IMG/VR virus record: IMGVR_UViG_3300021420_000126
Span: 1-20,775 of that record
DNA length: 20,775 bases
DNA from: a virus
Reading direction: 5' to 3' (one strand)
Shown piece after piece: positions 1,318 to 19,732 of the stretch. The notes beneath the pieces are model-generated. The model saw nothing but the letters and a program-made list of their open reading frames with translations, was not told the DNA's origin and made no database searches. A program made the position numbers and the translations under genes. Within the stretch, counting starts at the first letter, position 1, and each line of letters starts with the position of its first letter.

Positions 1318-2925
1318 CTAGGCGGCCAGGCTGCCGCCGCCCGTGTAGGTCTGCCCGTCGTAGCGCACGACGGTCAGCCCGGCGTCGATCGGCTGGCCCG
1401 GGCCACGGCGCGGCAGCCGCCCGATGGTGATGGTGGGCAGCACGCGGGCCACGACGGCGCGGCGCCGCGCCATCGGCAGCCCGGCCCATACCTGCGCCGG
1501 GGTCCGCCCGCCCCGGGCGGCCGGGCGGAACTCGGGCAGCGGGTCGGCCTCGTCGCTGGTGCCTAGCTGGGCCTCGATCTGGGCGCGGTCGGCAGCCAGG
1601 GCGGCCAGCTCCCGCTCGGCCACGGCGGCGCTGATGACCTTGGCCCGGTGCTGCCGCAGCGTGAACCCCTGCGCGTCGTCCAGCTCGGCAAGCTGGGCGC
1701 GCAGCGCGGCCCGGTCGATCCGTACGGCGGGGGCGGGCTGGAGCAGGGCGCCGTCGCTGGCGGCGATGGCTTGCACCACGGCGCCCTCGATCAGGGCATC
1801 GAGCGCGGCGGCGTTGCGGCGCACGTGCCCGCCCGTGGCGCACTGGTAGGTGTGGTGGTTGTTCCCGCCGCCCGGGCCCTGCGCCTTGATCGGGCCCGTG
1901 CAGACCCCGCACCGGGTGTGCCCGCTGAGGAGCCAGCGGGGCTCGTTCCCCGTGCTGGTCTTGCGCGCCGGGTCGGTCAGCAGATCGACCATGGCCTGCC
2001 AGCGCTCGGGGCGGACGATCGGGTCGGGGATGTGCGCGGCGCGGATCAGCTCGCCGCCGCGCCGGGCCAGCCCGGCCAGGCTGGGCTTGAGCAGCACATC
2101 GCGGAGGATCTGCGACGACCAGGGCACGCCCGTGACGGTGCCCACGGGGCCCTCGCGCAGCCTGCGCGCCTCGGCCCGCAGGTTGGAGCCCAGGTCAAGG
2201 ATGGCCGCGTAGATGGCCAGCACTTCCGCGGACTCCAGCGGCACCTGGTCAAGGATGCGCTCGTGCTCGGCCGAGCCCTCGCGGGGCCGGTAGCCGAACG
2301 GGCGGCGCCCGCCGCCGTAGCTGCGGCCAGCCCAGCGGCGGCGGCCCTTGCGCACGTTCCGCGCGATGGTCTCGGAGTACTGCCGGTTGGCCTCGATGGC
2401 GGCACGCAAGGCGGCTACCTCCTGCGGCGTGCCCCCGGCCGTCAGCAGCCAGCGGGGCGCGCCCTCGTCGTCGGGCACCAGGACGTAGGCGCTGGCGCTG
2501 CGCACGGCGTCGATCAGGTCGTCGCCGTCGCGGTGGGTACGGGCCAGCCGGGAAACGTCCCCGGCGATGAGCACGTTGGCGGCCCCGTTCTGGAGGTCCA
2601 GCACGGCGCCCTCGAACACGGGGCGGCGGGTGCGGAACGTGACGAGCCCCGTGCCCGTGATGACGCGGCGCGGGGTCTTGTAGGCGCTGGCAGGCTTGGC
2701 CCGGCCGCCTGCGGTCAGGTCGTTCTCGATCCGGGCGGGCCCGGCCACGGTCACGCCAGCGCGGGCGGCCAGCTCGCGCAGCTCGGCCTCGCGGGCGTCG
2801 AACGTGCCCGCGTCCTCGCCCCGGAAGTCCGACAGGCGCAGCAGGATGATGCCGGTCAGGACCGGGGCGGCCCCGGCCCCCGTGCGGGGGGCCAGGGCGG
2901 CGGGTGCCAGGGCGGCGGCGGTCAT
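1318..2925 (-). CDS. int: large serine integrase (site-specific recombinase)
   Basis: A 535-aa large serine recombinase that would insert the phage into the host chromosome by attP x attB recombination and, with a directionality factor, excise it. The ATG at 2925 overlaps the upstream stop (ATGA), with GAGGGG 6 nt before it. Order of parts: a 20-residue Ala/Pro leader; the resolvase catalytic domain with Arg30-Leu-Ser32 (Ser32 is the likely nucleophile) and Asp123 with SRLAR at 125-129; the recombinase DNA-binding domain (GGGRRPFGY, about 204-211, onward); a zinc ribbon with Cys339, Cys342, Cys362 and His367; a coiled coil at about 402-456; and a short C-terminal part. All hallmarks of phiC31/Bxb1-type integrases are present, at a normal length for the family. 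The frame is open for 66 codons upstream of ATG 2925, but that stretch overlaps the neighbouring gene and is a shadow. No damage is seen, so it should be active. Confidence 0.95.
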   Translation of the reverse strand: MTAAALAPAALAPRTGAGAAPVLTGIILLRLSDFRGEDAGTFDAREAELRELAARAGVTVAGPARIENDLTAGGRAKPASAYKTPRRVITGTGLVTFRTRRPVFEGAVLDLQNGAANVLIAGDVSRLARTHRDGDDLIDAVRSASAYVLVPDDEGAPRWLLTAGGTPQEVAALRAAIEANRQYSETIARNVRKGRRRWAGRSYGGGRRPFGYRPREGSAEHERILDQVPLESAEVLAIYAAILDLGSNLRAEARRLREGPVGTVTGVPWSSQILRDVLLKPSLAGLARRGGELIRAAHIPDPIVRPERWQAMVDLLTDPARKTSTGNEPRWLLSGHTRCGVCTGPIKAQGPGGGNNHHTYQCATGGHVRRNAAALDALIEGAVVQAIAASDGALLQPAPAVRIDRAALRAQLAELDDAQGFTLRQHRAKVISAAVAERELAALAADRAQIEAQLGTSDEADPLPEFRPAARGGRTPAQVWAGLPMARRRAVVARVLPTITIGRLPRRGPGQPIDAGLTVVRYDGQTYTGGGSLAA

Positions 2926-3263
2926 CGGTTGCCCCTCTCCGTGGCGGCTTCCCACGTGCGCTCGGCCAGGCGGCGCTCGGAGAGGGCCTGCCACAGGTCG
3001 CAGACCCGGCAGGCGGCCAGCCCCGAGGAGCCCAGCCCGTAGGCGATGGTGATCGGGTCCTCCGCGAACGCCTCGTAGCCGCAGGCGTGCGGCGGGGCGT
3101 CCTGGTAGGCGATCAGGTAGCACGTCAGGTGGCCGCAGCCATCCGGGCCAGGCTGGGGGTCGTACCAGTCGGCGCAGAGCGGGCCCGTGTTGGTGGGCTC
3201 CTCGCCCGGCGCCAGCCCGAACAGGCTGGCGATCAGGGCGGCGTCCTGGGGGGTGGTGGTCAT
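2922..3263 (-). CDS. Cys-rich hypothetical protein upstream of integrase
   Basis: A 113-aa acidic protein starting at ATG 3263, preceded by a GGAGGAACCACC box. Its TGA overlaps the integrase ATG (ATGA), so the two are translationally coupled. Six cysteines stand at 30, 43, 48, 61, 85 and 88, including a CRVC pair near the end and a CGHLTC stretch; these could bind zinc. I do not recognise the family. Small proteins encoded next to serine integrases are sometimes recombination directionality factors, which share no common sequence, so this protein is a candidate by position only. It could equally be an unrelated zinc-binding accessory protein. Confidence 0.75.
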   Translation of the reverse strand: MTTTPQDAALIASLFGLAPGEEPTNTGPLCADWYDPQPGPDGCGHLTCYLIAYQDAPPHACGYEAFAEDPITIAYGLGSSGLAACRVCDLWQALSERRLAERTWEAATERGNR

Positions 3264-3266
3264 GGC

Positions 3267-3278
3267 GGTGGTTCCTCC
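3267..3278 (-). promoter_or_regulatory. extended ribosome-binding box GGAGGAACCACC
   Basis: The minus strand reads GGAGGAACCACC, then 3 nt, then the ATG of the 113-aa gene. The AACCACC part lies beyond the Shine-Dalgarno core and is shared with the boxes at 3687-3699, 5064-5077 and 6028-6040. Confidence 0.6.
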
Positions 3279-3294
3279 GGTCGGGTAGGGCGGG

Positions 3295-3684
3295 TCAGTC
3301 GGTGGGGAGCATGGCGGCGCGGACGTACTCCTCGCCGTGGACGGAGCAGGCGGCGCTGAAGCCGTGGGTGAACAGGTAGGCACGGATGGCCGCGTAGTCG
3401 GCCTCGCTGGTGCCCTGCGCCCGGATGCGGGCGGCGCGCTCCTGCGCCTGCGCCAGCGTGTCGGTCTCGCCCTGGCGCGGCAGGCGCAGCGCTACGGGCT
3501 GGGGGGCGGGGGCGAGCCGCTCGTCCAGGTCGCGGGCGCAGTCCTCAAGCTGGGCGGCCTTGGCGTAGTACGTCAGGGCGCCCTGCGGGTCGCTGCTGAT
3601 CTTGGCGGCGGCGTCGCGGCGGTGGCTCTCGGCCAGCGTGCGCCACGCGGTGGCGATCTGGGCGGCGCTGTAGGTGGTGGTCAT
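3295..3684 (-). CDS. hypothetical helical protein, first gene of integrase operon
   Basis: A 129-aa protein with an ATG at 3684 and an exact AGGAGGAACCACC box 2 nt upstream, so the start is well supported. The first two-thirds looks helical, with a stretch resembling a TPR-like or coiled helix pair (DPQGALTYYAKAAQLEDCARDLDE); the C-terminal part contains Tyr- and Phe-rich segments and two cysteines. No family is recognised. It lies 31 bp upstream of the Cys-rich gene and shares the leftward transcript with the integrase. Together with that gene it is a positional candidate for a directionality factor or a regulator of integration; nothing in the sequence proves either. Confidence 0.7.
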   Translation of the reverse strand: MTTTYSAAQIATAWRTLAESHRRDAAAKISSDPQGALTYYAKAAQLEDCARDLDERLAPAPQPVALRLPRQGETDTLAQAQERAARIRAQGTSEADYAAIRAYLFTHGFSAACSVHGEEYVRAAMLPTD

Positions 3685-3686
3685 CT

Positions 3687-3699
3687 GGTGGTTCCTCCT
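3687..3699 (-). promoter_or_regulatory. extended ribosome-binding box AGGAGGAACCACC
   Basis: An exact 13-bp match to the box at 6028-6040, ending 2 nt before the ATG at 3684. It decides the start of the 129-aa gene. Confidence 0.65.
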
Positions 3700-3703
3700 A
3701 GCG

Positions 3704-3722
3704 GGCCCCCCGGGCGGGGGCC
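3704..3722 (-). promoter_or_regulatory. hairpin in the leader just upstream of the ribosome-binding site
   Basis: GGCCCCC (3704-3710) and GGGGGCC (3716-3722) form a 7-bp all-GC stem with a 5-nt loop. In the leftward transcript it ends only 4 nt before the AGGAGGAACCACC box of the integrase operon. It could damp translation or act as an attenuator or insulator. Its function is not known. Confidence 0.35.
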
Positions 3723-3726
3723 GTAC

Positions 3727-3738
3727 TACTACGTAGTA
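3727..3738. repeat. perfect 12-bp palindrome TACTACGTAGTA
   Basis: An AT-rich perfect palindrome in an otherwise very GC-rich stretch. It is about 43 bp upstream of the 129-aa gene start and 12 bp from the large 58-bp palindrome. Its size and position suit a dimeric repressor operator. No protein can be assigned to it. Confidence 0.4.
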
Positions 3739-3750
3739 ACGCCAGGTCAG

Positions 3751-3808
3751 CCTATTGTATGCCGCTTAAAGTGTGGGCTTGCCCACACATGAGGCGGCAC
3801 GCAATAGG
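3751..3808. other. 58-bp imperfect palindrome: candidate attP, or operator of the integrase operon
   Basis: Both nested arm pairs share the same centre at 3779/3780. The outer arms CCTATTGTATGCCGC (3751-3765) and GCGGCACGCAATAGG (3794-3808) pair at 13 of 15 positions, and the inner arms GTGTGGGC / GCCCACAC (3771-3778, 3781-3788) pair perfectly around a central TT. Overall 23 of 29 half-site positions are symmetric. Serine-integrase attP sites are imperfect palindromes of about 50 bp with a non-palindromic central dinucleotide (TT in phiC31) and usually lie near int; all of that fits. A promoter-operator or bidirectional hairpin is the main alternative, because a minus-strand TACAAT lies within the left arm. 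Confidence 0.4.
3754..3759 (-). promoter_or_regulatory. possible -10 box (TACAAT) for the integrase operon
   Basis: The minus strand reads TACAAT, one mismatch from TATAAT and rare in this GC-rich DNA. A transcript from here would have a leader of about 60 nt before the ATG at 3684. No good -35 is visible; the expected place lies inside the GTGTGGGC palindrome, which could therefore be an operator or activator site. Confidence 0.3.
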
Positions 3809-3811
3809 CGG

Positions 3812-3983
3812 CCCCGGCCGGGGGCTCCCCAGAGGTCCCGTCCAACCAACGAGGCCGGCACCCCCGGCCGGGGGCGGGCCCAGCCGGGGCCGCGCGGGGT
3901 TGGCTCACGCGGGCCCCGGCCGGGGCTAACCGGCCAGGGGCGGCAGCCGGGGGGGAGAGCTGCCGATGGTCCCCTGGCCGGGG
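3812..3983. repeat. array of CCCCGGCCGGGG palindromes spaced about 50-57 bp
   Basis: The perfect 12-bp palindrome CCCCGGCCGGGG stands at 3812-3823, 3862-3873 and 3914-3925, and a one-base-longer variant (CCCCTGGCCGGGG) at 3971-3983. The starts are 50, 52 and 57 bp apart. The array fills the gap after the leftward accessory operon. It may act as tandem terminators in the absence of U-tracts, or as a set of protein-binding sites. No gene is visible in it. Confidence 0.5.
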
Positions 3984-3986
3984 TCT

Positions 3987-4265
3987 TCAGTTGGGGCTCC
4001 TGCCCAGCAGGGCGGCCAGCACGACCGGCAGGTCCGGGCCCGCCAGCGCCCGCAGGTAGACCACCATGTCAGCTACGGCGGCGCGGTCGCTGTCGTAGCC
4101 GCTCATGGCGATGCCCGCCTTGGTGCTGTCGTCGTTGATGAGCACGATCACCCGGTCCCCGGGGCGGACGTGCTCGCTGCCCTCGATGCCGTCTATGGCG
4201 GCGTCGCATAGGCGGCCCAGGCGGCCCTCGCCGTGGCCCCCCCGGTAGTGCCAGATGCTGGTCAC
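3987..4265 (-). CDS. hypothetical protein, last gene of accessory operon
   Basis: A 92-aa protein. The GTG at 4265 overlaps the TGA of the upstream gene (GTGA), and GAGGG lies 7 nt upstream. It begins with a His/Gly-rich segment (WHYRGGHGEG), followed by an alternating hydrophobic core (GDRVIVLINDDSTKAGIAM) that looks like beta strands, and ends in a helix of hydrophobic residues (VVYLRALAGPDLPVVLAALLG). No family is recognised. It is the sixth gene of the GntR-led leftward operon, and the CCCCGGCCGGGG array follows its stop. An alternative start further upstream in frame would lie within the neighbouring gene and is less likely. Confidence 0.7.
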   Translation of the reverse strand: MTSIWHYRGGHGEGRLGRLCDAAIDGIEGSEHVRPGDRVIVLINDDSTKAGIAMSGYDSDRAAVADMVVYLRALAGPDLPVVLAALLGRSPN

Positions 4266-5077: not shown

Positions 5078-5588
5078 ACGTGGGTCTCGGTGCAAATTGC
5101 GGCCGCACATCCTCGCCCGCGACGAGCCGGGCAACCAGCTCGTCGCCCTGGGCGATCAGGTCGGCCTTGGTGTAGCCGGGCAGGGGGGTGGTGTAGCGCA
5201 TCAGGACGCGCTGGAGCGCGGCGCTGGTCATCTCTACGGGCTGCTCAACCACCCGCACGATGGTGGCGAACGGCTCTTGGACGCAGACGCCGGGAAAGTC
5301 CTCCTCGTGGTCGGGGTCGGGCTCGCAGGTCACAGGCCAGCACTCATACAGCACGCCGTACGGGGCCCGCCCGGTCGTGGCGAGCATGAAGGCGTGGGCG
5401 CGGGCTAGCTGCTTGGCGGTGGTCAGGAACACGCGGTCAGGGCGGGCGCGGTCGGGCTCCAGCCCGGCCTCACGAACAGAGGCGCCGAACACGCCTGCGA
5501 AAACGTCCGCAGCGGTCGGCGCCCCAGTGATGGATGGCGGCAGGAGCCAGCGGCCCGCGATGGGCGGGCCGCCGTGATACCAGCTCAC
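5076..5588 (-). CDS. probable ADP-ribosyltransferase (Arr/Tpt1-like fold)
   Basis: A 170-aa protein; GTG 5588 overlaps the GntR stop (GTGA), and a GTG one codon earlier (5591) is equally possible. The layout matches small Arr-type ADP-ribosyltransferases: WYHGG near the start (His5 in the NAD-binding position), RVFLTT at about 52-57 with following helix AKQLARAHAFML, then GVLYECWPVTCEPDPDHEEDF, and QEPFATIVRVVE at 104-115. The last resembles the CEPLRIVGVVE stretch as I recall it from rifampin ADP-ribosyltransferases. Such enzymes move ADP-ribose from NAD to a drug, protein or nucleic acid; the substrate here is unknown. A C-terminal helical extension of about 50 residues lies beyond the usual Arr fold. 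It is encoded between a GntR regulator and a Cys-rich protein. It might modify a host target, resist an antibiotic or counter defence. The fold is likely by motif; activity is inferred. Confidence 0.6.
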   Translation of the reverse strand: MSWYHGGPPIAGRWLLPPSITGAPTAADVFAGVFGASVREAGLEPDRARPDRVFLTTAKQLARAHAFMLATTGRAPYGVLYECWPVTCEPDPDHEEDFPGVCVQEPFATIVRVVEQPVEMTSAALQRVLMRYTTPLPGYTKADLIAQGDELVARLVAGEDVRPQFAPRPT

Positions 5589-5953
5589 CACGGATCGAAG
5601 GCCAGCAGCAGGCTAGCGGCCAGCGCGACGAGCCAGCCAGAGGCGGGCAGGGCCAGGACGGTCAGCCGGGTAACGATGCCCGGGCCGGTCAAGGCGACGG
5701 GGGCGGGGGCGGGCTCGTGCTCGCCGGTCACGTATGTGCCCCGGCGCGCGTGGGTGCGGACAAGGCCATCGTTTGCCAGCAGCCGCAGCGCCCGCACGAT
5801 GGTCATCCGGGCCACGCCGAACTCGGCGGCCAGCGCTGGCGCGGAGGGGATGGCACGGCCGGCCGGGTACTGCCCGGCCTCGATGCGGGCCCGGATGACG
5901 GCAGCGATCTGCTGGTAAACAGGGGCCTCCAGGCCCCGGTCAATATGGGTCAT
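5585..5953 (-). CDS. GntR-family transcriptional regulator with C-terminal membrane segment
   Basis: A 122-aa protein with ATG 5953 and a weak AGGG 4 nt upstream. Residues 11-76 form a complete GntR winged helix-turn-helix: PVYQQIAAVIRARIEAGQYP, IPSAPALAAEFGVARMTIVR, and the wing GLVRTHARRGTYV. There is no ligand-binding (UTRA or FCD) domain. Instead, residues about 97-119 (LTVLALPASGWLVALAASLL onward) are an unbroken hydrophobic stretch long enough to cross the membrane, followed by only a few residues. It is the first gene of the leftward accessory operon, and a 10-bp inverted repeat lies 16 bp upstream, facing the divergent 6041 gene, so autoregulation and control of both units are likely. 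The regulator call is solid; membrane anchoring is inferred from hydrophobicity. Confidence 0.85.
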   Translation of the reverse strand: MTHIDRGLEAPVYQQIAAVIRARIEAGQYPAGRAIPSAPALAAEFGVARMTIVRALRLLANDGLVRTHARRGTYVTGEHEPAPAPVALTGPGIVTRLTVLALPASGWLVALAASLLLAFDPW

Positions 5954-5968
5954 AACGCCCTAGCTTAC

Positions 5969-6007
5969 GCTGCGCTACCCTGGGCCCCGCTGGTAACGTA
6001 GCGCAGC
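5969..6007. promoter_or_regulatory. inverted repeat in divergent promoter region (GntR operator candidate)
   Basis: GCTGCGCTAC (5969-5978) and GTAGCGCAGC (5998-6007) are perfect 10-bp inverted arms with a 19-bp spacer, so the half-site centres are 29 bp apart. They lie in the 87-bp gap between the GntR gene and the plus-strand 61-aa gene. The gap must hold both promoters; a minus-strand TAAGCT just 8 bp before the GntR ATG would give a nearly leaderless mRNA. Binding by the GntR protein is inferred from position. Confidence 0.5.
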
Positions 6008-6040: not shown

Positions 6041-6226
6041 ATGGGCGGGCTCGTTAGCTACTGGTGCGGCAGGGGCCAGCACGGCTCTTGCTCGGTCCCG
6101 GAATGCGAGTGCAAGACAGGGCTGCACCCCGCCTACCACGAGGGGTCGCGGCCCGATCTGGAGCTGCTCCCGCGCGATCCGGTGGCCCGCGCGGGCGCCG
6201 AGCGCGACCGCACGGGGGGGCGGTAG
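6041..6226 (+). CDS. small Cys/His-rich (putative zinc-binding) protein
   Basis: A 61-aa protein and first gene of the plus-strand unit; its ATG directly follows an AGGAGGAACCACC box. The N-terminal half contains a compact metal-binding pattern, with Cys, His and Cys residues in YWCGRGQHGSCSVPECECK followed by GLHPAYH. The rest is charged and probably flexible. Short C-H-C-C-C-H proteins are common among actinophage accessory genes, but none has a role I can name with certainty. It is divergent from the GntR gene and probably shares its operator. The next gene starts 2 nt after its stop, so the two are likely co-translated. Confidence 0.7.
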   Translation: MGGLVSYWCGRGQHGSCSVPECECKTGLHPAYHEGSRPDLELLPRDPVARAGAERDRTGGR

Positions 6227-7049: not shown

Positions 7050-7104
7050 CAAGCGCGGCCCGGGCGCGGGGGGTTTGTGGCACCCCTCGTGACCCGGGCC
7101 GCTC

Positions 7105-7132
7105 GCTGCCCCGATAGGGGGGCCGGGGCAGC
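7105..7132. terminator. hairpin, possible terminator of the late operon
   Basis: GCTGCCCCG (7105-7113) pairs with CGGGGCAGC (7124-7132) across a 10-nt loop. It lies 239 bp beyond the last late gene and faces the opposite terminator. It overlaps a G-quadruplex motif, so the two structures would compete. Confidence 0.4.
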
Positions 7133-7146
7133 CAAGGGGGCCGGGG
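7117..7146 (+). other. G-quadruplex motif
   Basis: The plus strand holds four G-tracts of 6, 4, 5 and 4 G (7117-7122, 7125-7128, 7136-7140, 7143-7146) with loops of 2, 7 and 2 nt. This is a strong intramolecular quadruplex pattern. High GC raises the chance of such motifs, but tracts of four or more with short loops are uncommon. Confidence 0.5.
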
Positions 7147-7296
7147 AGAGCACCGCAAGGCAGGCTCACCCGGGGGGGGGGCCATGGGCGGGCTCGCGCT
7201 AACGGCGCGGGCCCGCCCCGCTGGTTAGGCGGCAGGGCCCCGGGGGGGGCGGCGCGGAACGGGCTGCGCCCGCAGCCAGGCCAGCGGCAGCAGGGC

Positions 7297-7366
7297 GCCC
7301 AGGGCCGCCCGCGCATACCGGCTACCCCACGGCGGCCCAGGGCCGCAGCGGGCCGCCCAGGGCCGC
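7297..7366. repeat. three direct copies of GCCCAGGGCCGC
   Basis: Exact 12-bp copies begin at 7297, 7335 and 7355, just beyond the stop of the last late gene (7371). Each contains the small palindrome GCCC-A-GGGC. They may form stem-loops that end or stabilise the late transcript. Confidence 0.4.
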
Positions 7367-7370
7367 GCAG

Positions 7371-7685
7371 CTAGCGGGAGGAGTCCGCGGTGGGCGGGTC
7401 GTCCGGGTCGATGCCCAGGCGCCGCAGGATGGCCTCCTGCCGCACGTAGGCGGCCTCCTGCTTGCGGATCAGCTCGGCCTGCTGCTTGCGGCCATGGCCG
7501 ACGCTGGCCAGGGTGCGGAACACGGCGATGATCTGCACGAGGCTGGCGACCGCCGCGCCGATGGTGATCAGGATCTCCAGGTGCAGCGAGCGGAGCAGGT
7601 CGGCTATCGGGGTGGTCGTGCCCGGCGTGAGGATCGGCGCCGTGGGCGTCGGCCGGGGGGTGGCTGCGAGCCAGAGCAGCAGCAC
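7371..7685 (-). CDS. holin-like membrane protein
   Basis: A 104-aa protein. The GTG at 7685 lies 4 nt after the stop of the tail fibre gene with no clear Shine-Dalgarno, so it probably depends on re-initiation. The N-terminus is short and hydrophobic, followed by a Pro/Thr-rich stretch. One membrane span at about 36-58 (EILITIGAAVASLVQIIAVF) is followed by a basic, Gln/Glu/Arg-rich helix (about 63-90) likely to be a cytoplasmic coiled coil, and an acidic tail. A single-span protein with a charged tail in the lysis region of an actinophage is commonly a holin or holin partner. It is the last gene of the late operon, while the endolysin lies three genes upstream. The membrane topology is clear; the holin role is inferred from context. 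Confidence 0.6.
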   Translation of the reverse strand: MLLLWLAATPRPTPTAPILTPGTTTPIADLLRSLHLEILITIGAAVASLVQIIAVFRTLASVGHGRKQQAELIRKQEAAYVRQEAILRRLGIDPDDPPTADSSR

Positions 7686-7689
7686 GGGC

Positions 7690-9387
7690 CTAGCGGGCGA
7701 GGATTCCGGTGGCGCGCGGCTGCGCGACCATCGGCGGGTTGACGGGCGGCACGCCCGGGAAAACCGACGTGGACGCCTTGACGACCGCCTGCCCTACCGG
7801 GGCGCCGCCATCCAGCGGGGTCGCCCGGACGTAGAGCATGACGTTGCCCGGCCCCGTCGATACGGCGCGCACCGGCCCGATGGCGAGCGTGGCGTAGGGC
7901 AGCGCCTGGTGCAGCGTCACCTGACCGGAGCCGGGGCCGCTGATCGCTACCGGGCCGAGCCCTGCGATCCACGCGGTGATCACTCGCGGCGAGGCCGCTG
8001 GGACCGCCACCACGTTCAGCTCCACCGTCAGGTGGGCGCTGGCAAGGTACTCGGCGTTTGGCGGGAGCACGACAGGTATCCCGATCAGGGAGTCGGCGTT
8101 ATCGACCAGCGGCACGTCGTCGGGGATGGTCGCCAGGTGGAAGGACTCCAGCCGGTCCACCCGGGCCTGGAGGGCGTCGAGCCGGGCCACGACCGCGCCG
8201 AGGTCAGCCCAGCTAACGTCGCCCTGGTCGCCCTTCGGCCCTACCGGGCCGCGCAGGTTCCCGTCCAGGGAGTAGCCGCCGCCGATCATCACCCGGTAGA
8301 CGTTGCCGTTGCCGGGCATGTCGGGGGTGGCGTGATTCAGGACCAGCACCATGTCACCGGGCACCCCGATACCCGGTGTCGGCGGGTCGATGGGGAACCA
8401 ATGCCAGAGGTTGCCGGGCGGCCCGACCGGGCCGCCGACGCCCTGCGGGCCCTGCGGGCCGGTGTCGCCCTGGTCGCCCTTGTCGCCCTGCGGCCCCGTG
8501 ACCTTCATCGCCAACCAGGGCTGCGGCGCGGCCCCCGTCGCGCCGACGAAGACGATCGCCTGCCCCGTGTAGGGGTCGGTCGGCGTCAGCAGCAGGACCG
8601 CCTCACCGACCTTCATCTGGTAGGCGGCGGGCGGCTTGCCCGACCCGTCGAAGCCAGCCGGGATCAGGCCACTGGTGATCGAGGCCACGTCGGAGGCGCT
8701 GCGGGTGTAGATGTCCATGACGATGAACGACGGGGCGCCGGGGTCGCCGTCCGCGCCGTCCGCGCCGTCCTGGCCGTCCGCGCCCGGGGTGCCGGGCTCG
8801 CCCTGCGGGCCAGGCGGCCCCTCGGGCCCGGGGTCGCCCCGGTCGCCCTGGTCGCCCTTCGGGCCGGTAGCGCCAGGGGTGCCCGGCGCGCCGTCCGCGC
8901 CCCGTGCGCCTTGCGGGCCCGTGTCGCCCTGGTCGCCCTTGGGCCCCGGGCTGCCCGTGCCCCCGGTCAGCCCGCGCTCGCCAGGCGGGCCAGCCGGGCC
9001 CGTGTCGCCTACCGGGCCGCTGTCGCCAGGCGGGCCGCGCACCTGCCCGGTCTCGATCCAGCCGCCCGGGACGGCCGAGGGGCCGAGGAACAGGTACAGA
9101 TACCCGTCGCCCCGGTACTCCACCGACTGCCCGACGCCGACCTGAATCTCAGCCTCCGGGCTGCGCACGTCATCCCACCCGGCAGGGATCAGCCCATCCT
9201 CGGGCAGCTCGCCCGGGGTCCGCTGGGCGAACGAGAACACGATGGTCGTGGTGCCGCCCGGGTCGCCGCGCTCGCCGCGCGGGCCGCGCAGCCCAGGCGG
9301 CCCCATCACGGGCGGCCCCACGGCGGCCGAGGCGGCCCCGGCTGGCAGCCGGACAGCTACGCCCTGGCCGTTCCCGACCTCGGTCAT
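7690..9387 (-). CDS. collagen-like tail fibre / minor tail protein
   Basis: A 565-aa protein; the ATG at 9387 overlaps the upstream stop (ATGA). It is built of Gly-X-Y collagen-like blocks at about residues 24-45, 118-219, 298-326 and 380-390, including PGPKGDQGDTGPQG-type repeats, alternating with short globular modules at 46-117, 219-297 and 327-380. The first two modules share GLIPAG[WF]D and a VG-rich strand, suggesting duplication. A heptad helix (LGAVVARLDALQARVDRLES, 396-415) probably trimerises the fibre. The C-terminal 150 residues are beta-rich and likely form the receptor-binding head. Collagen-like fibres are usual in Streptomyces phages, where they would reach for the cell surface. 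It lies between the BppU-like gene and the holin-like gene. The fibre call is strong; receptor and symmetry are inferred. Confidence 0.85.
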   Translation of the reverse strand: MTEVGNGQGVAVRLPAGAASAAVGPPVMGPPGLRGPRGERGDPGGTTTIVFSFAQRTPGELPEDGLIPAGWDDVRSPEAEIQVGVGQSVEYRGDGYLYLFLGPSAVPGGWIETGQVRGPPGDSGPVGDTGPAGPPGERGLTGGTGSPGPKGDQGDTGPQGARGADGAPGTPGATGPKGDQGDRGDPGPEGPPGPQGEPGTPGADGQDGADGADGDPGAPSFIVMDIYTRSASDVASITSGLIPAGFDGSGKPPAAYQMKVGEAVLLLTPTDPYTGQAIVFVGATGAAPQPWLAMKVTGPQGDKGDQGDTGPQGPQGVGGPVGPPGNLWHWFPIDPPTPGIGVPGDMVLVLNHATPDMPGNGNVYRVMIGGGYSLDGNLRGPVGPKGDQGDVSWADLGAVVARLDALQARVDRLESFHLATIPDDVPLVDNADSLIGIPVVLPPNAEYLASAHLTVELNVVAVPAASPRVITAWIAGLGPVAISGPGSGQVTLHQALPYATLAIGPVRAVSTGPGNVMLYVRATPLDGGAPVGQAVVKASTSVFPGVPPVNPPMVAQPRATGILAR

Positions 9388-9782
9388 CCCGGCACCAGTT
9401 CTTCCTCGCGCGGCGCCGTGCCCGGGTCCGACCGCAGCGGATCGGTGACGCGCGGCTTGAGGATCATCTGCCCGGCAAGGACCGTGACGCCCTCGCCGCC
9501 TGCGGGCTGGCGGCACGCGGCGTCGAAGGCCAGCGCGGGCCCGGCCGGCAGCCGCGCGGTGTCGTCGCCGCGCAGCCAGAACCGCACCCCCGTGTCGTCG
9601 GCGGCCCACTCGAAATCGAGGCGCAGGGCGCCCTGGCCGAGGACGGTCGCCGCCCAGGTCCACAGCGTCACATCGACCGCGGAGCCGTCCTCGTCGAGCA
9701 GCGTCAGGCGGAAGGCGAACGGGTCGCCAGCCACCGCGCGCAGCGTGACCTCAATCGGCCAGGCATCGACCATCGCGGGCAC
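9384..9782 (-). CDS. BppU-like baseplate / minor tail protein
   Basis: A 132-aa protein. The GTG at 9782 has GGGAGGGGGG 7 nt upstream; an ATG three codons later is the alternative. The core (GDPFAFRLTLLDEDGSAVDV, then WTWAATVLGQGALRLDFEW and a DDTGVRFWLRGDDTARL strand) follows the pattern of the N-terminal domain of BppU-type baseplate proteins and related phage tail adaptors, a beta-sandwich that ties receptor-binding proteins to the tail tip. The C-terminal tail is charged. Its stop overlaps the ATG of the collagen-like fibre, so it is a plausible fibre adaptor. Family assignment is by pattern only. Confidence 0.6.
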   Translation of the reverse strand: MPAMVDAWPIEVTLRAVAGDPFAFRLTLLDEDGSAVDVTLWTWAATVLGQGALRLDFEWAADDTGVRFWLRGDDTARLPAGPALAFDAACRQPAGGEGVTVLAGQMILKPRVTDPLRSDPGTAPREEELVPG

Positions 9783-9798
9783 GGCGCGGCCCCCCTCC

Positions 9799-10644
9799 CT
9801 ACTTCGAGTAGGTCACCGCGACCTTGAGGTTCTTGCCCTCGCGGAGGCGGCAGACCGCGAAGCTCGTGCCCTTCGGGATCGTGGTGCCCTGCGCCCCCTT
9901 GCCGTAGTCCAGGGTCACGTCCCTGTTGTCGGCGCCGGGCCAGTCCAGCCGCACCACGGCGGCGCTGTTGCAGCCGAGCCGGATGCGGGCGTTGCCGCCC
10001 GTGTAGGCGTTCGGGATCACGATGGGGATCGGGTCCCCGTCCTTCGTCCAGTCGAGCCAGAACATGATCGGCTCCTCCTCCTCCTGCGGCTTCGGCGCGG
10101 GCGCGCCCGGGCTGGCGCCGCCGCCCTTGGCTATCCGGATGATCTCGTCCATCGGGAACCCGGGGCCGCAGTCGTGATGGTTGCTGCCGCCCGGGCCGAA
10201 GTTCTTGTGCTCGCAGAAGCCGCGCCCGCTGCCCTGCGCCTGGCTGCTGTTGAGCCCCACCATCGGGATGTTGTACTGCCGCGCCAGCTCCCCGGCCAGC
10301 CGCCCCGCAGCGGTGAGCATGTTCGGCATGGACAGCCACTTGGACCGGGACCAGCCCGAGGCGGCGCCGCTGGGGGTGCAGAACGAGATGGCCAGCGCCG
10401 AGCCGTTGTAGTTGGCTTGCGCCCAGCAGCGGTTGTTCGGGCTGACGTAGTTCGCGCACCAGTTGTTGCCGTGGCTGTTGTCCACCGCAAAGTGGTAGCT
10501 GACCTGCGATGACGGGTTGGTCAGCCAGTTCCGCAGCGATTCCGCGGTCTGGCTGCCCTCCGTGGTGTGGAAGGCGATCACGCGGCGGGGGGCGCCGCCG
10601 CTGGAGTAGTGCGGGCTGGGCCACCACGCCCGGGTAACGGCCAT
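9799..10644 (-). CDS. endolysin, N-acetylmuramoyl-L-alanine amidase (amidase-2 domain)
   Basis: A 281-aa protein; the ATG at 10644 shares one base with the upstream stop (TGATG), and GGAGG lies about 10 nt before it. Residues about 20-170 form an amidase-2 domain: RVIAFHTTEGS with zinc ligand His26, SYHFAVDN, a middle with several Cys and Trp, and HHDCGPGFPMDEI, where His156 and Asp158 fit the usual HxDPG zinc motif, although the Pro of that motif is Cys159. A Pro/Glu linker (about 181-195) leads to a C-terminal beta-rich domain of about 90 residues that is not LysM, SH3 or PG-binding as far as I can see and may bind the wall or envelope. It would cut the stem peptide from muramic acid at lysis. 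No signal peptide is seen, so a holin is needed, perhaps 7371-7685. Confidence 0.85.
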   Translation of the reverse strand: MAVTRAWWPSPHYSSGGAPRRVIAFHTTEGSQTAESLRNWLTNPSSQVSYHFAVDNSHGNNWCANYVSPNNRCWAQANYNGSALAISFCTPSGAASGWSRSKWLSMPNMLTAAGRLAGELARQYNIPMVGLNSSQAQGSGRGFCEHKNFGPGGSNHHDCGPGFPMDEIIRIAKGGGASPGAPAPKPQEEEEPIMFWLDWTKDGDPIPIVIPNAYTGGNARIRLGCNSAAVVRLDWPGADNRDVTLDYGKGAQGTTIPKGTSFAVCRLREGKNLKVAVTYSK

Positions 10645-11003
10645 CAGTCGCTCGCCTCCTCGTCGGGCCCGCGCTCGGGGTCCTCGTCCCCGGGGGCGCG
10701 CAGCTCGGGGTGCGCGTCGTCGTACTGCTCCAGGGCGGCGGGCTCGCCCTCGGGCTCCTCGGCGCCCGCCGCGACGGGGTTGGCGCCCAGCGGCTCCCCG
10801 GTGGGCGCGCCGTCGCCCTCGGGCTCCACGGCCCCCAGCGGCTCCCCCGTGCTGGTGACCCCGGCCCCCTCGCCAGGGTCGAACGCGGGTTCGGGTTCGG
10901 CCTTGCCGCCAGGCCAGCCCTGCTCGGCCTCGGCGTCACGATGCGTCATGTGCCTCATCCTGCCCGCCCTGCGCCAGGGGCGCCAGCGCGGCCACCCGCT
11001 CAC
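10644..11003 (-). CDS. acidic low-complexity protein between tail and lysis genes
   Basis: A 119-aa protein if it starts at GTG 11003, which overlaps the stop of the upstream gene (GTGA); ATGs at 10958 and 10949 are alternatives. Apart from a basic, Trp/Arg-rich start, it is almost wholly Glu, Asp, Gly, Pro and Ala, with an imperfect repeat (STGEPLGAVEPEGDG / PTGEPLGANPVAAG). This predicts a strongly acidic, disordered chain. The tight packing between two coupled genes supports a real gene. Function unknown; a flexible virion linker or chaperone-like acidic protein is conceivable. Confidence 0.6.
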   Translation of the reverse strand: MSGWPRWRPWRRAGRMRHMTHRDAEAEQGWPGGKAEPEPAFDPGEGAGVTSTGEPLGAVEPEGDGAPTGEPLGANPVAAGAEEPEGEPAALEQYDDAHPELRAPGDEDPERGPDEEASD

Positions 11004-11887
11004 GTGCCGCCGCCCAGGTCTTCGACGGTGCAGCAGACGTAATCGCCGTGGCCGACCGCCGTCCCCATCCGGTACTGCCCGCTGATGTGCGCCCAGATGC
11101 GGCCCTCGAAGATGTACCGGCCGGGGGGCACGTTCCCGGGGCGCTGGAAGATCCATTCGACGCTCGCGCCCTGCCCGGCCTGGAGGCGCCGGTAGGAGAT
11201 GATCGCGGCGCGGCCCATGATCGCGGCCGATTGCGGCTGGCCCTCCGGGCGGGAGCCGACGCCGATGCGGCCCTCCAGGCTGCTGCCGCTCTCGGCGGTC
11301 ACCGACGTGGAGGAGAACCGGACCCGGTACCAGCGGCCCGGTTGCAGCATCACGGGCTCGGTGGGGCAGGAGGCGAACCCGAGGGCGGTCTCCCACGTGT
11401 TCGCGTTCTGGAGCCCGCCAGCGTTCCGCACGGCCATCGCCAGCAGCCCGCCCCCGGCGCCGCCCCCGGTCGGCCCGGGGATCAGCTCCATCTGCGCGGC
11501 GCTGTTAGCGCCAGCGGGGACAACGATGGTGGCCAGCAGCACGCCCAGCCGCCCCGCCTCGCCCCCGGCCGGGTACAGCCGCCCCACCCAGGTCCCCGCG
11601 TCGGTGTCAATGTCGGCCCACAGCACATCGGTGCGCGGCTGCGCCCCGCCAGCCGGTACGTCCTGCTGCTGCTCCTCCCGGGCGCCGACCACGGCCAGCG
11701 TCCGGTCCCCGCAGTCCACGATGCCCAGCCAGGGGCCGACGCCCACGGTCAGCCCGCCCCGGGCCGCCAGCACGGGCGCGGCGACGAGGCCAGCGCGGCC
11801 CGCCAGGGCGGTGACCACCATCCGGTCCTCGATGGCGTCGTAGTTGCCCGCCTGGCCCCAGGCCAGCAGGCCACCAGGTGTCGTCAT
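11000..11887 (-). CDS. minor tail protein (baseplate-associated)
   Basis: A 295-aa protein; the ATG at 11887 overlaps the upstream TGA (ATGA), with GGAGGAGAC just before it. The first half (DRMVVTALAGRAGL, GGLTVGVGPWLGIVDCGDRT, RTDVLWADIDTDAGTWVGRL, LATIVVPAGANSA) follows a pattern common in Streptomyces and related phage minor tail proteins encoded after the tail hub. The second half reads like a carbohydrate-binding or jelly-roll beta-sandwich (PGRWYRVRFSSTSV, VPPGRYIFEGRIWA). It is therefore probably a tail-tip protein with a binding domain. It stands between the Gp37-like gene and the acidic gene in the coupled late series. The precise role is inferred. Confidence 0.7.
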   Translation of the reverse strand: MTTPGGLLAWGQAGNYDAIEDRMVVTALAGRAGLVAAPVLAARGGLTVGVGPWLGIVDCGDRTLAVVGAREEQQQDVPAGGAQPRTDVLWADIDTDAGTWVGRLYPAGGEAGRLGVLLATIVVPAGANSAAQMELIPGPTGGGAGGGLLAMAVRNAGGLQNANTWETALGFASCPTEPVMLQPGRWYRVRFSSTSVTAESGSSLEGRIGVGSRPEGQPQSAAIMGRAAIISYRRLQAGQGASVEWIFQRPGNVPPGRYIFEGRIWAHISGQYRMGTAVGHGDYVCCTVEDLGGGT

Positions 11888-13085
11888 GTCTCCTCCGCAG
11901 TGGTCGCTTCCAGGTGGGTGCGGAACATCCCGGTCGTCGTCGCGTCGAGCCGGTCCAGCCGCGCCGTCAGGGTCGCCGCAGGCTTGGGCGGCGGGTCCAC
12001 GATGGTGACCGTCCACGCGGCGGTCCCAGCGGCGGCGTCGGCGTCGATCCGGGCCAGCCGCCCCACGGCGCTCAGCCCGGCTGGCATGAAGGGGCTGACC
12101 AGGTTCACCGCCACGTCGTCCCCGACGCCGTAGGTGCCCAGCGCCGGGGCTGCCACGGGCATCCGTGATTCCAGGGCCAGCGCCGGGCCCGCGTACGTCG
12201 TCGCGGCGGCCAGCGCCCGCTCCCGCAGCGTGGAGGGCAGCACGGTCCCGGGCCAGTCGTCCACCTCGTCCAGGCGGGGCAGCCCCTCCTGGGGGCGGTC
12301 CACGATCTCCACGGGCGCCCGGGCGTCGGCCGGGGCGCCCTCGGGCGTCTCGCCCACGGCGAAGGTCCGGGTCCGCTGCTGCGCGGCCGACCACGTGTTG
12401 CGGAAGCTGGCGGCCCCGGCCGGGACGACGATGCCGAGCCCGGTAGCGCCCCCGGCCCTTGGGTAGGCGATCTTCAGCGTGCAGACCGGCCGCCCCGCCT
12501 CCATCGTGTACTCGGCGCGGAACTCCGGGCCCTCGATGACCTCGCACAGGTTGACCAGCAGGGCGGCCAGGCTGCCGCCCTCCAGGTAGTCATAGAACCG
12601 GGTCCGCAGCCTGCCCGGCCCCGGGTCGGTGACGACCCGCACCCCGACCTGCGAGACGAACGCGGCCAGGTCCCGGGCGATGATGGTCTGCTCCGTGCCC
12701 GGCTCGGGGTAGTTGACCCGGGAGGCTTGCTGCCGCTTGGCCAAGTAGCCGGGCAGCTCGCTGAACGCCATGCCGACCGCGGTCCCCCCGTCGTCATCGA
12801 GCCCGACCGGGCAGCCCGCCCAGACCGGCCGGCCGTCGTAGAACGCCCAGAGCCGCCAGCCCCAGAAGCGCAGCAGCTCGGCCCGGGTCAGCCCGGCCTG
12901 CTCGATGGGGATGACGGCCTCGGCGGCGCCGTACCCGCTCAGCAGCCACGAGCAGGTGAAGCCGGTCACCTGGACCGGGCCGAGGGCGTCACGCGGCCCG
13001 AACGGCAGCCCCGGGGGGAGCTGGGACTGGTCGGCCCAGAACGTCCACTCGGCGGGGATGGCCGAGCCGACCAGCGGCGGCGAGG

Positions 13086-13089
<4 letters not shown>
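11884..13089 (-). CDS. minor tail protein, Gp37-like tail hub component
   Basis: A 401-aa protein; the ATG at 13089 overlaps the stop of the Dit-type gene (ATGA). The N-terminal part (FTCSWLLSGYGAAEAVIPIE, LLRFWGWRLWAFYDGRPVWA, GMAFSELPGYLAKRQ) and the following EQTIIARDLAAFVSQ match the usual pattern of Gp37-like / Siphovirus tail-hub proteins, which form the ring under Dit that holds the tape measure tip and the spike. The second half is beta-rich, ending in a helical segment (TARLDRLDATTTGMF). Gene order (tape measure, Dit, hub, minor tail) supports the call. Family is moderately sure. Confidence 0.7.
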
Positions 13090-15751
<2,662 letters not shown>

Positions 15752-15752
<1 letters not shown>

Positions 15753-18277
15753 CAGGCCCTCCCGGTGGCGGTCGCCCAGCCAAGGCGGCGCGAGACGGCG
15801 GCGGCGATCTCCGTCTCCGACTGCCCGGGCTGCGGGTACACGTTGATGGTGATCGTGGCCCGGGCGCTGATGCCGCCGAGGCCCTCGGCCGCGCCCGCCA
15901 GGGGCGAGAGCAGGCGGGGCAGCGCGGCGGCCAGCGTGGCGCCCAGCCCGCCCCGGCCGCCCTCGGGCCCGCCGCCGCCGCCCGCCAGGGCGCCCACGGC
16001 CGGGCCGCCCCCGGGCACCGCCACGTGCCCGCCGCCGCCGCCGCCCGCGCCGCCGAGCAGGGCGCCCAGCACGGCCGACACGACAGGGGCACCGGCCGCC
16101 AGGCCCCGGGCGAGCCCGGCTGCGACCTCGCCGCCCACGTCCTCACCGATGACGCTGCGGCCGACCGCCCGCTTAGCGGCCGAGATGGCCCCGCCGATGG
16201 TCGAGCTGACCATGGAGGCGATGCCCGACAGCCCGGCCTGGATCGAGCTGGCCATGGCCGAGGCGGCGCTGGCCCCGGCGCTGGCGAAGCCGCCGACCAG
16301 GCCCCGGGCGGCGCCGACCATGCCCGACACGGCCGAGGAGACGACCGAGCGGGCCCGGGACAGCCCGGACGACAGGGCGCCGACGAGCCCGGAGGCGGCC
16401 TGCTGGGCGGCGCCCGTGACCCCGGAGGCCATGGACCGCACGGAGCCGATCACGGCCGACACCGCCGCCTTGGTCGCGCCCGTGACCGCCGACCAGGCGG
16501 CCCGCACGGCCCCAGCTACCGCCGTGAAGGCGGCGCCCAGGGCCCGCAGCACGCCCAGCGCCCCGGACACGGCGCCGCCCATGGCCGACAGGGCAGGGAT
16601 CAGCCCGGGGCTGCCGCCGAGGATCCAGCGGACCACCGTGGCGATGGCGTTGGCCACCACGCCCAGGATCGCGGCGAGCGCCTTGAAGCCGGGCACCGTG
16701 ATGTAGGTCACCTGGAGGCGCAGGATCGCCGCCGCGAGCTTGATCAGCGGCACCAGCAGCAGCGCCACGACCTTGACCAGCCCGCCCAGGATGGCGAAAA
16801 GGGCGGTCAGCAGCGGCGACACGGCCGACAGGACGGGGCCCAGCTCCTTCACGGCCGGCGCCAGCACGGAGCCCAGCTCGCGGGCCAGCAGCACGACCAC
16901 GGGCACCAGGGGCTTGATCGCGTTCATGACCCCGGCGAAGGCGGCCTTCAGCACGCCCAGCAGGGCGCCGCCCAGCGAGATCATCGCGGCCCGGAACTCC
17001 GGGGACACGGCCATCAGCAGCCCGATGGCGGCGACCACCCCAGCGATGGCGAGGCCCACGGGGCCCAGGGCAGCGCCCAGGCTGCCCGCCGCTGGGGCCA
17101 GCCCGCCCAGCCCGGGCAGCGCGGCGGCCCCGGCCTGGCCGATGGACAGCAGCCCCTTGCCGACCAGGCCCAGGGGCGACAGCAGCGATTGGAGCATCGG
17201 GCCCAGGATGGGCAGGCTGCCGAGCACCTTGGTGCCGCTGAACACGGCCAGCCCGGCCCCGGCCACGGCGGCGGCGGGGCCGAACCGTTTGATCGCGTCC
17301 ACCGCCGTGTTGATCTTGGCCGGGTCTAGCGTCTCGATGAACGTGGCGGCGTGTTTGGCGGCCCCAGCGATGGGCGCGGCCAGCCGGGCGGCGGCGACCC
17401 CGATGGCGTCGAAGATCGGGGCCAGCTTGCCCCCTGGCTCCAGCGCCCTCGCGAGCGCCTTCCCCAGGTCGTACGCCTGGAGGATCACGGGGCCGAAGGC
17501 GTTGACCAGCCCGGTGCCTACCGCGATCTTGATGTCGTCGATGATCCGGGGGAAGGACCGCAGCACCTTGCCCGGCTCGGTCATCGCCGCCGCGTAGGCC
17601 CCGGCGATGGGCTTGCCCGCCGCCAGGGTGGCGTTCAGTACGGCCTGCGCCCGCTCGGTCGCGGTCAGCTCGGACGCCGACTTGCCGACGCTCTTGGCGT
17701 AGTCGGCCATCGCCTGCCCGGCTTGGACGTTGATGCCCGCGTTGCGCAGGACCAGGCTGTTCTGCGTCGTGATGCCGTGGATGAGCTGGTCTAGTACCTC
17801 GGAGGAGTCGCGCCCGCTGATGACAGCGGCGTCCTGGGCGACCCGGGCCAGGTCCGTGCTCTTGCCGAGGTCGAGCTGGTTGCGGGCGAACTGGGCGACG
17901 AGGTTCTGCGCGACCCCGGCTTGGATGCCGTAGGAGCGCACCGCGGATACCTGCTTGAGCATCTGCGGGTACGACAGGTTGTTGGCCTGCGCCAGCGCCT
18001 TGAGCGTGGCGTTCATTTCCCCGACGCGGGCGGCGGCGCGGAAGCTGGCCACGCCGAACCCGATAGCCGCCGTGGAGGCCACGCCCAGCCCGGTCGCCAC
18101 CCCCCGGCCGATGCTGGCGGCGATGGGCTTGAGGGCGGTCAGGCCCTTGGACATGCCGCCGCTGACGGCCTTGCCCGCGTCGTCCCCGGCCGACTGGGCG
18201 GCGGCCTTGACCGCTGGCCCGACCTTCGATGTGTCGGGCAGGACGAGGAGCCTCAGCGCCCCATAGGCGCTAGCCAA
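15752..18277 (-). CDS. tape measure protein
   Basis: An 841-aa protein, starting at TTG 18277: the frame has a stop at 18292 and no ATG or GTG between it and the TTG, and GGAG lies 4 nt upstream. The start overlaps the chaperone stop by 8 bp. The N-terminal part has the usual actinophage tape-measure pattern (SKVGPAVKAAAQSAGDDAGK, ALAQANNLSYPQMLKQVSAV, QNSLVLRNAGINVQAGQAM). Long hydrophobic Ala/Gly/Leu/Val stretches follow (about 380-660), then Ser/Ala-rich repeats, a Gly-rich linker and a C-terminal ATITINVYPQPGQSETEI segment often seen in the family. It sets tail length and helps DNA pass the membrane. With about 0.15 nm per residue the tail would be near 125 nm. The position after the frameshifted chaperone pair is diagnostic. 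Confidence 0.93.
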
Positions 18278-18991
18278 GGTGCTCCACCCTCACCCCGGGC
18301 ATAAGCGCTAGCTGCGCGGCGGCGTCCGCCCACGTGCGCCCGCTCTTGGCCCCGGCCGCGCCCGTCCGGGCCGCTGCGGGCCGCCCAGCGCCGGGGCGTG
18401 CCAGCGCAGGGCGGGGCAGCGGGCGCGGCCTGGTCGCGCCCTTGGCGCCGTAGGCGCGCAGCGTGACCCACGTCAGCCGGGCCAGGTGATCGACCACCAG
18501 GGCCAGCAGTTCCGCCTCGGTGGACCACGCCTGCCCGCCGCGCAGCGCAGCGGGGGGCAGCCGCACGGCCAGCACGGCCAGGCGGCGCGGCGTAACCCGG
18601 GGGTCGAGCACATCGACCCCGTAGGCGGCGAGCATGGCGGCCTCTACGTCGCCGTCGAACCGGGCGGCGCAGGCGGCGGCGAGTTTGGGAGGCCCCCGAC
18701 CCCGGCCGCGCGGCCGACCTCCTCGAACAGGACGTTCAGCTCGCCCATCGTCATCCCGGCCGCGCAGAGCTGGTCGAACGTGGCCTGGCCGAGCAGCAGC
18801 ACCATGGCGTCCGCCAGCTCGCCCCGGCCGATGAGCGCCTGCGCCTGGAGGGGCCAGTTCAGCGCGGGCGGAACCTCATAGGTGGCGCCCCGGTAGGTGA
18901 ACGGGAAAGGGGTGGCCTCCTGGGCGGCAGCGGCGGCAGCGGCAGCCTGGTCCAGGTCGAACACGGCCCGCCCCGTGGCGGGCGCGTTCAT
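18270..18991 (-). CDS. tail assembly chaperone, long -1 frameshift product (gpGT-like)
   Basis: This is a fusion made when ribosomes slip back one base at CCCAAAC (18689-18683). The first 103 codons are read from ATG 18991, then base 18683 is read again and translation continues in the -1 frame to TAG at 18270, giving 240 aa. The -1 frame is open through the join, and its product there (LAAACAARFDGDVEAAMLAA) looks like the typical second chaperone domain. The downstream part ends in a basic linker and ADAAAQLALMPGVRVEHLG. In siphoviruses the long form binds the tape measure and the short form supplies most copies. The downstream frame alone also has an ATG at 18635, but without the slip it would lack its N-terminal helix. 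Frameshifting is inferred from the heptamer and the gene order. Confidence 0.8.
18644..18991 (-). CDS. tail assembly chaperone, short product (gpG-like)
   Basis: A 115-aa protein; ATG 18991 overlaps the stop of the major tail protein (ATGA). It begins with an Ala-rich helix (DLDQAAAAAAAAQE), then FPFTYRGATYEVPPALNWPL and ALIGRGELADAMVLLLG, then a conserved-looking GMTMGELNVLFEEVGRAAGV, typical of actinophage tail chaperones. The end past the slippery site (NSPPPAPPGSTAT) is low-complexity, as usual for the non-shifted tail. It coats the tape measure during tail assembly and is expected to be the more abundant of the two products. Confidence 0.88.
   Translation of the reverse strand: MNAPATGRAVFDLDQAAAAAAAAQEATPFPFTYRGATYEVPPALNWPLQAQALIGRGELADAMVLLLGQATFDQLCAAGMTMGELNVLFEEVGRAAGVGGLPNSPPPAPPGSTAT
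18683..18689 (-). promoter_or_regulatory. -1 programmed frameshift site C CCA AAC
   Basis: In the reading frame of the short chaperone the codons are CTC CCA AAC, giving a perfect X XXY YYZ heptamer (C CCA AAC). Slippage re-pairs both tRNAs with CCC and AAA and opens a -1 frame of 137 codons without a stop. The short frame ends 39 nt further on (18644). A downstream stimulatory structure was not modelled. Confidence 0.85.
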
Positions 18992-19680
18992 GCCGCTGCC
19001 TGCTCACCGGACGCCCTGGAGCCCTTGCGGCGGCGGCGGGCCGGGGGCGCTGCCCCGGCGCTGACCCCGGAACCGTTCGGGCTCGGCGCGCCCAGCGAGG
19101 AGCCAGCGGCGGCGGGGCCGAGCTGCACCCGCGCCAGGGACCCGGCGTCCTCCAGCGCCGACAGCGTGCAGTCCAGCGGCACGACCGCGCCCCTGGTGAT
19201 CGGCATGTCGCCCGCGTCGGACAGGTTGGCCCGGGTGAACGTCAGGCGCAGCACGCGCTCGCCGTCGCGGCTGTCGATCGACACGGCGTACAGGTGCCCG
19301 GCCTGGTCGGTGCGGACCTCCATGTCGATCGAGCCATCGGTGGCCGGGGTCGGCTCGTCGGTGTCGAAGTACAGCCCCAGCGTCATGCTGTTGAGCTGCC
19401 AGAGCACGAACTGGAGCGTGACCTGCCGCTCGGTGATCACCGTGCGGATCGGGGCCACGGACTGCCAGGGCGTCAGGGGCTCGCTGCTGGTGTCCTGGCC
19501 CACGGTCGGGCCGTCGTCGCTGAGGTAGCCCAGCAGCCGCCAGGGCGCCTCGTAGTCCTCGGTCGTGTCGTCCGGGGGCTCCGTGCCCGGGGGCGCGAGC
19601 CAGATGCCGGGGCCGTTCGGGGTGCCGACCTGCACTTCATCGGGATCGAGGGTCGTCACTGGGGGGGCGGGTGTGCTCAT
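18988..19680 (-). CDS. major tail protein (tail tube subunit)
   Basis: A 230-aa protein; ATG 19680 with GGAAGGAACACC upstream. It starts with a short Thr/Pro leader (TLDPDEVQVGTPNGPGIWLA) and goes on to APWRLLGYLSDDGPTVGQDT, ITERQVTLQFVLWQLN and LRLTFTRANLSDAG, the pattern of actinophage tail-tube proteins of the lambda gpV-like fold. The C-terminal about 35 residues are Gly/Ser/Ala then a basic RRRRKGSR stretch, a flexible extension. Its place between the tail terminator and the chaperones is the standard order. A 52-bp gap upstream, larger than at neighbouring junctions, might hold its own promoter (a weak CATACT is present), fitting its high copy number, but this is speculative. Confidence 0.88.
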   Translation of the reverse strand: MSTPAPPVTTLDPDEVQVGTPNGPGIWLAPPGTEPPDDTTEDYEAPWRLLGYLSDDGPTVGQDTSSEPLTPWQSVAPIRTVITERQVTLQFVLWQLNSMTLGLYFDTDEPTPATDGSIDMEVRTDQAGHLYAVSIDSRDGERVLRLTFTRANLSDAGDMPITRGAVVPLDCTLSALEDAGSLARVQLGPAAAGSSLGAPSPNGSGVSAGAAPPARRRRKGSRASGEQAAA

Positions 19681-19732
19681 GGCCGGGTGTTCCTTCCGAT
19701 CGGCCGGGCAGTATGGGCCGCGAGCATCGGGC

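Follow-up and report, generated by a model that had tools for sequence, protein, structure and literature searches.

A nested palindrome upstream of a large serine integrase gene as the probable attP of a soil actinobacterial phage

Introduction

Does the nested palindrome at positions 3751-3808 of this viral DNA serve as the attachment site (attP) of the large serine integrase encoded nearby and, if so, what kind of host sequence might the enzyme enter? Large serine integrases of the phiC31 and Bxb1 type act as dimers on attP and the bacterial attB, make 2-base staggered cuts, rotate their subunits and religate the ends, while excision requires a directionality factor. The attP sites of actinobacteriophages such as phiC31, Bxb1 and phiJoe are about 50-60 bp long, usually roughly 50 bp, and are composed of imperfect inverted repeats around a non-palindromic dinucleotide in intergenic DNA near the integrase gene (int).

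Results

The integrase and its genomic surroundings

The window, meaning the whole stretch of DNA analysed, is the complete IMG/VR record of 20,775 bases with a G+C content of 75%. It encodes a tape measure protein, a major tail protein with weak matches to Gordonia, Cutibacterium and Streptomyces phages, a tail fibre, an endolysin and connector proteins. Genes around the palindrome are directed leftward, and three of them are relevant here:

1318-2925, minus strand: large serine integrase, 535 aa, with resolvase N-terminal domain, catalytic Ser in ILLRLSDF, Cys pair CGVC and membership of phrog_95
2922-3263, minus strand: small ORF between the palindrome and int, without family match
3295-3684, minus strand: small ORF between the palindrome and int, with AGGAGG-like ribosome-binding site, without family match

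The product of 1318-2925 has the composition of a large serine integrase, namely a resolvase domain with the catalytic serine, a zinc ribbon and a long C-terminal part. Pfam Resolvase (PF00239) scored above cut-off and the phrog_95 integrase family matched with E 3e-34; the zinc-ribbon match fell below cut-off, yet the Cys pair is invariant, as are Ser32 and Arg30. The protein shares 25-30% identity with integrases of described phages and under 50% with every other integrase found here. The directionality factor could be encoded by one of the short ORFs at 2922-3684. Beyond int lie a non-coding, repeat-rich stretch (875-1317) and a small HTH gene (641-874). Further upstream, the divergent spacer between a GntR-type gene (5585-5953, minus strand) and 6041-6226 (plus strand) contains an inverted repeat, GCTGCGCTAC / GTAGCGCAGC, at 5969-6007, which is likely the operator of the GntR-type gene.

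A 58-bp palindrome with a two-base centre

The palindrome, CCTATTGTATGCCGCTTAAAGTGTGGGC-TT-GCCCACACATGAGGCGGCACGCAATAGG, lies in an A+T-richer spacer of 302 bp (3685-3986). Its features, as we assign them, are as follows:

3751-3778, minus strand: putative P' arm, the int-proximal half, reading GCCCACACTTTAAGCGGCATACAATAGG on the int strand; oriented by analogy with prophages G125, G195 and G085
3779-3780, TT on the plus strand and AA on the int strand: putative central crossover dinucleotide, assigned from breakpoints in homologous elements and the AA centre conserved in related phages
3781-3808, minus strand: putative P arm, the int-distal half, assigned from the palindrome and its conservation in relatives
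3754-3759, minus strand: TACAAT, a -10-like hexamer within the P' arm; no matching -35 found

The two 28-bp arms are complementary at 23 of 28 opposed positions (7+6+1+1+8) around an even, non-palindromic TT/AA centre. Outer (CCTATTG/CAATAGG), middle (TGCCGC/GCGGCA) and inner (GTGTGGGC/GCCCACAC) blocks share that centre, the inner arms contributing 8 perfect pairs per side, and the half-sites read CCTATTG..GTGTGGGCAA and TTGCCCACAC..CAATAGG. With a palindrome score of 15.0 the site ranks top in the window, ahead of the next at 12.0, and exceeds the window-wide maxima of 9-13.5 obtained in 15 Markov simulations of the same dinucleotide make-up. When only AA/TT-centred palindromes near int are considered, it scores 19 versus a maximum of 9 in 30 simulations. 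The first-pass annotation had described a 58-bp nested palindrome with a non-palindromic TT centre, the largest it had noticed in the window and 826 bp from the int start (2925), all of which holds; it had also placed the site at the head of the int operon, and here the upstream position stands, but ORFs 2922-3263 and 3295-3684 intervene.

The site resembles attP of the phiC31/Bxb1/phiJoe type in its length class, inverted repeats, dinucleotide centre, intergenic location and closeness to int. It differs in its unusually regular inner arms, its 58 bp and the two short ORFs before int; the length, against the roughly 50 bp that is usual, and the separation from int by these ORFs count against the attP reading.

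The site accompanies homologous integrases in related phages

Relatives were found via the tape measure and major tail proteins, which yielded ~80 soil virus contigs and one contig from a Streptosporangiales MAG. Integrases 34-48% identical to the window's are encoded on eight of these contigs (L103-L110), and in all eight a nested palindrome lies 9-772 bp upstream of int, in most at less than 500 bp. Read in int orientation, the best AA/TT-centred palindrome near int is the upstream one in 7/8 (L103, 276 bp; L104, 115 bp; L105, 482 bp; L106, 772 bp; L107, 9 bp; L109, 162 bp; L110, 91 bp), while the palindrome of L108, 152 bp from int, has a CT core. The centre is AA in six of the eight and TT in L107; a GGGC-AA-GCCC centre is found in the window, L105, L106, L109 and L110, and GTC-AA-GAC in L103 and L104.

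When the window's site was aligned locally against the int region, from 4 kb upstream to 2.5 kb downstream, the best match was the contig's own int-upstream palindrome in seven of the eight relatives (L103, L104, L105, L106, L107, L108 and L110). L105 has 19 exact bases in common with the window's site, and L103 and L106 align over 41-43 bases that include the outer motif CATACAATAGG / ATACATAGG / CATAAATGAGG; outside the core, the alignments of L109 and L104 are weak. Contigs L179 and L183 also retain a near-identical site, and L178, whose integrase is 48% identical, has no AA/TT palindrome in the 418 bp upstream of int, where the contig begins. Judging from these alignments, we regard the palindrome next to int in the relatives as a homologous site that is tied to the integrase. 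In the free phages it is always upstream of int and not on the 3' side, which in the window corresponds to 875-1317.

A second strong palindrome, TGTTAGCCCAGCTAGCTGGGCTAACA, perfect over 26 bp, is present in L104 ~53 bp int-proximal of the attP-like site, and a less perfect form occurs at the same distance in L179 and L183. Another contig, L002, is 99% identical to window positions 7063-20775 and stops before the int region.

Neither this phage nor its own integrase clade was represented by a prophage in searches of viral and genome collections and of 395 further genomes, and so attL and attR of this very phage were not seen; the 395 genomes of the class, searched without a positive control, contained no integrase of the window's clade. 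Single-protein patterns found no close integrase relatives in the viral and genome collections and likewise no relatives of early-region proteins, the half palindrome had no exact-pattern match in viral contigs, and the phage collection held no near match of the window. Described phage integrases, once aligned with the window's, proved too divergent for use as a search query.

Integrated homologous elements break at the AA/TT centre

A profile of these integrases searched against 345 genomes of the MAG's order, Streptosporangiales, gave 26 matches, of which the int-adjacent sequence was inspected. Both ends could be located in eight integrated elements of actinobacterial genomes, whose integrases share 30-40% identity with the window's and fall in neighbouring clades:

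TadA-type gene: G125 (19.0 kb), G195 (13.0 kb), G362 (19.4 kb)
ABC-transporter gene: G057 (9.3 kb), G199 (9.6 kb), G356 (14.8 kb), G365a (7.1 kb), G365b (9.3 kb)

In every one of the eight, the break between host and element falls exactly at the AA/TT centre of a site with palindromic arms around a GGC/GTC-AA/TT-GCC-like core, 56-254 bp upstream of the integrase match. Joining the host flanks at the shared AA/TT restores one open ATPase frame with an intact GxxxxGK[ST] in 8/8, the rejoined motifs being VTGGTGTGK-TT or GPNGAGK-[ST]T. Joining the element ends instead rebuilds palindrome-like sites of the window's design, such as CATTCGGC-AA-GCCGAATG for G125 and AAGATGCGTCACAATCC..GGC-TT-GCC..GGGGATCTGACGCATCTT for G199. 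The rebuilt attPs have 12-19 symmetric positions of 25, versus 8-13 of 25 for the rebuilt attBs, with G362 and G365a just slightly above their own attBs.

Because homologous elements break at the AA/TT centre, their flanks restore an ATPase gene and their ends rebuild a similar site, we conclude from sequence comparison that 3751-3808 is very probably the attP of the large serine integrase encoded at 1318-2925 (minus strand) in a soil actinobacterial phage. The attP candidacy put forward in the first-pass annotation thus gains support from the palindromes of relatives and from the breakpoints of the eight integrated homologues. That annotation had named junctions elsewhere, for example in 875-1317, as contrary evidence; among the relatives the eight breaks all lie upstream of int and none in the 3' region.

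Alternative readings of the palindrome

An inverted repeat with an even centre, placed in an A+T-richer spacer ahead of the first gene in a leftward group, might be expected of an operator, bound by the GntR-type regulator (5585-5953) or by the integrase, over a promoter of the int operon. Such a reading draws on the TACAAT in the P' arm, on the GntR protein encoded nearby and on a perfect, operator-like 12-bp palindrome, TACTACGTAGTA, at 3727-3738, on the int side of the site and upstream of ORF 3295-3684. The first-pass annotation had offered an operator over a TACAAT promoter as its alternative; the -10-like hexamer is present on the minus strand (3759-3754), but a promoter scan of 3600-4050 found no promoter-like pair and no complete sigma-70-type promoter. 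A regulator site would moreover leave unexplained why homologous sites break at their exact centre, and across relatives the site tracks the integrase rather than the GntR gene. We therefore hold an operator in place of attP to be very unlikely and the reading superfluous, although, with the hexamer in its int-side arm, the site might serve both purposes.

Still less probable is that 3751-3808 is something else and that a second palindrome, found 3' of int at 1151-1205, is the real attP. This 55-bp nested palindrome scores 12.0 and lies 113 bp from the int stop codon within the repeat-rich non-coding stretch, but it is centred on a single base (C1178), which does not fit the 2-base core of a serine integrase, its best matches in relatives are scattered with scores near background, and no homologous junction lies 3' of int. 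It was rejected as attP for its odd centre and lack of conservation. Least credible of all is an RNA hairpin acting as terminator or attenuator within the int operon leader: both strands fold far better than shuffles (z -5.8 to -7.5), but such folding is expected of any perfect DNA palindrome, the arms are A+T-rich with equal symmetry on both strands, and there is neither a T-run nor an Rfam match. On these checks of folding, T-run and Rfam, a hairpin, a tRNA-type site and a terminator at 3751-3808 were all rejected, and attP remains our preferred assignment.

The 1151-1205 palindrome is perhaps regulatory. Associated with it (1151-1205, also 1085-1097 and 1191-1205) are three CTGGCCGGTATGC-like half-site copies and several CCTGGTCA repeats.

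A Walker A lysine codon as the target of homologous integrases

All eight two-ended elements interrupt TadA/CpaF-type or ABC-transporter ATPase genes at the Walker A lysine codon; Pfam assigns the gene to T2SSE for G125 (3e-57) and to ABC_tran for G057, G199, G365a and G365b. The crossover AA makes up positions one and two of AAG, the invariant lysine codon. The window's site also has an AA core, which would match this codon of the homologues' targets if its attB were of the same kind. One-sided junctions fall at the same Walker A codons in G085 (T2SSE) and in G133, G263 and G323 (ABC); for these loci and G261 the far ends were not found or lay beyond the contig, and only the int-side junction was used. 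Among the best-matching genomic integrases with a readable int side, 12 of 13 have a Walker A junction, the exception being G261, an amidase insertion. A wider search added three more T2SSE junctions (L186, L192 and L197) and many other loci without a readable junction.

More distant homologues lie elsewhere, next to a ComEA-like gene (L123, L127) or an amidase-like gene (G261/L134), and the Walker A rule is not universal. The integrases of L123 and L127 adjoin a truncated ComEA-like (helix-hairpin-helix) gene, a competence-gene target.

The window's integrase groups with the eight phage integrases in a clade of their own (support 100/100). In a smaller tree this clade joins the T2SSE-targeting integrases (89/93), a placement that a larger tree did not recover with resolution. 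Given that the rule is not universal, that the placement of the clade is unstable and that no lysogen of the clade was found, a P-loop target for this phage is a prediction only, and we put about even odds on its attB lying in the Walker A sequence of a P-loop ATPase gene. The chances are similarly balanced that the window's integrase belongs to a group recognising Walker A P-loop DNA, in which the invariant lysine codon is the entry point of one lineage into many unrelated ATPase genes of essential fold and the nested palindrome represents the phage half. The identity of 3751-3808 as attP is much firmer than the ATPase target.

Discussion

By analogy with the characterised enzymes, an integrase dimer would bind both arms of 3751-3808 and synapse with a second dimer on the host attB, whereupon all four strands would be cut at the central AA/TT (3779-3780), the breaks staggered by two bases. 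Subunit rotation and religation would then place the phage between attL and attR, with the P' arm (3751-3778) staying beside int. In the homologous elements, attB corresponds to the Walker A codons GGC-AAG (Gly-Lys) in the gene for a P-loop ATPase, and the cut falls at the AA of the invariant lysine codon. Since this cut lies inside the codon, integration of these elements splits the ATPase gene.

Thousands of large serine recombinases were catalogued by Durrant et al. 2022 (PMC10083194), with att sites inferred from integrated elements, the same approach as ours. That paper reports that recombinases of distant groups target one conserved gene, and that targets are enriched for a magnesium chelatase gene and competence genes, so that ATPase genes were already known as targets. 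The pattern described here differs from that account in that neighbouring integrase clades use one Walker A lysine codon in both T2SSE (TadA/CpaF) and ABC transporters, ATPase families that are unrelated to each other; the terms 'Walker', 'ATPase' and 'ABC transporter' are absent from the paper's main text. A literature search of incomplete coverage turned up no account in which Walker A codons serve as attB, which is no proof of novelty.

The attP itself is of a familiar type, now assigned to an integrase remote from those of described phages and from all others found here, and of greater interest, though a by-product, is the Walker A target that neighbouring integrases share. It points to an insertion rule based on Walker A codons, and few short coding sequences in bacteria are as conserved as these. 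Should the rule hold for this clade, the host attachment site would be predictable from sequence, and the attP/integrase pair would be a candidate DNA-integration tool.

One genome, G365 (loci L147-L150 and L174-L176), has its 7.1-kb element in the Walker A codon of one ABC-transporter gene and its 9.3-kb element in that of another; both elements are too small for complete tailed phages.
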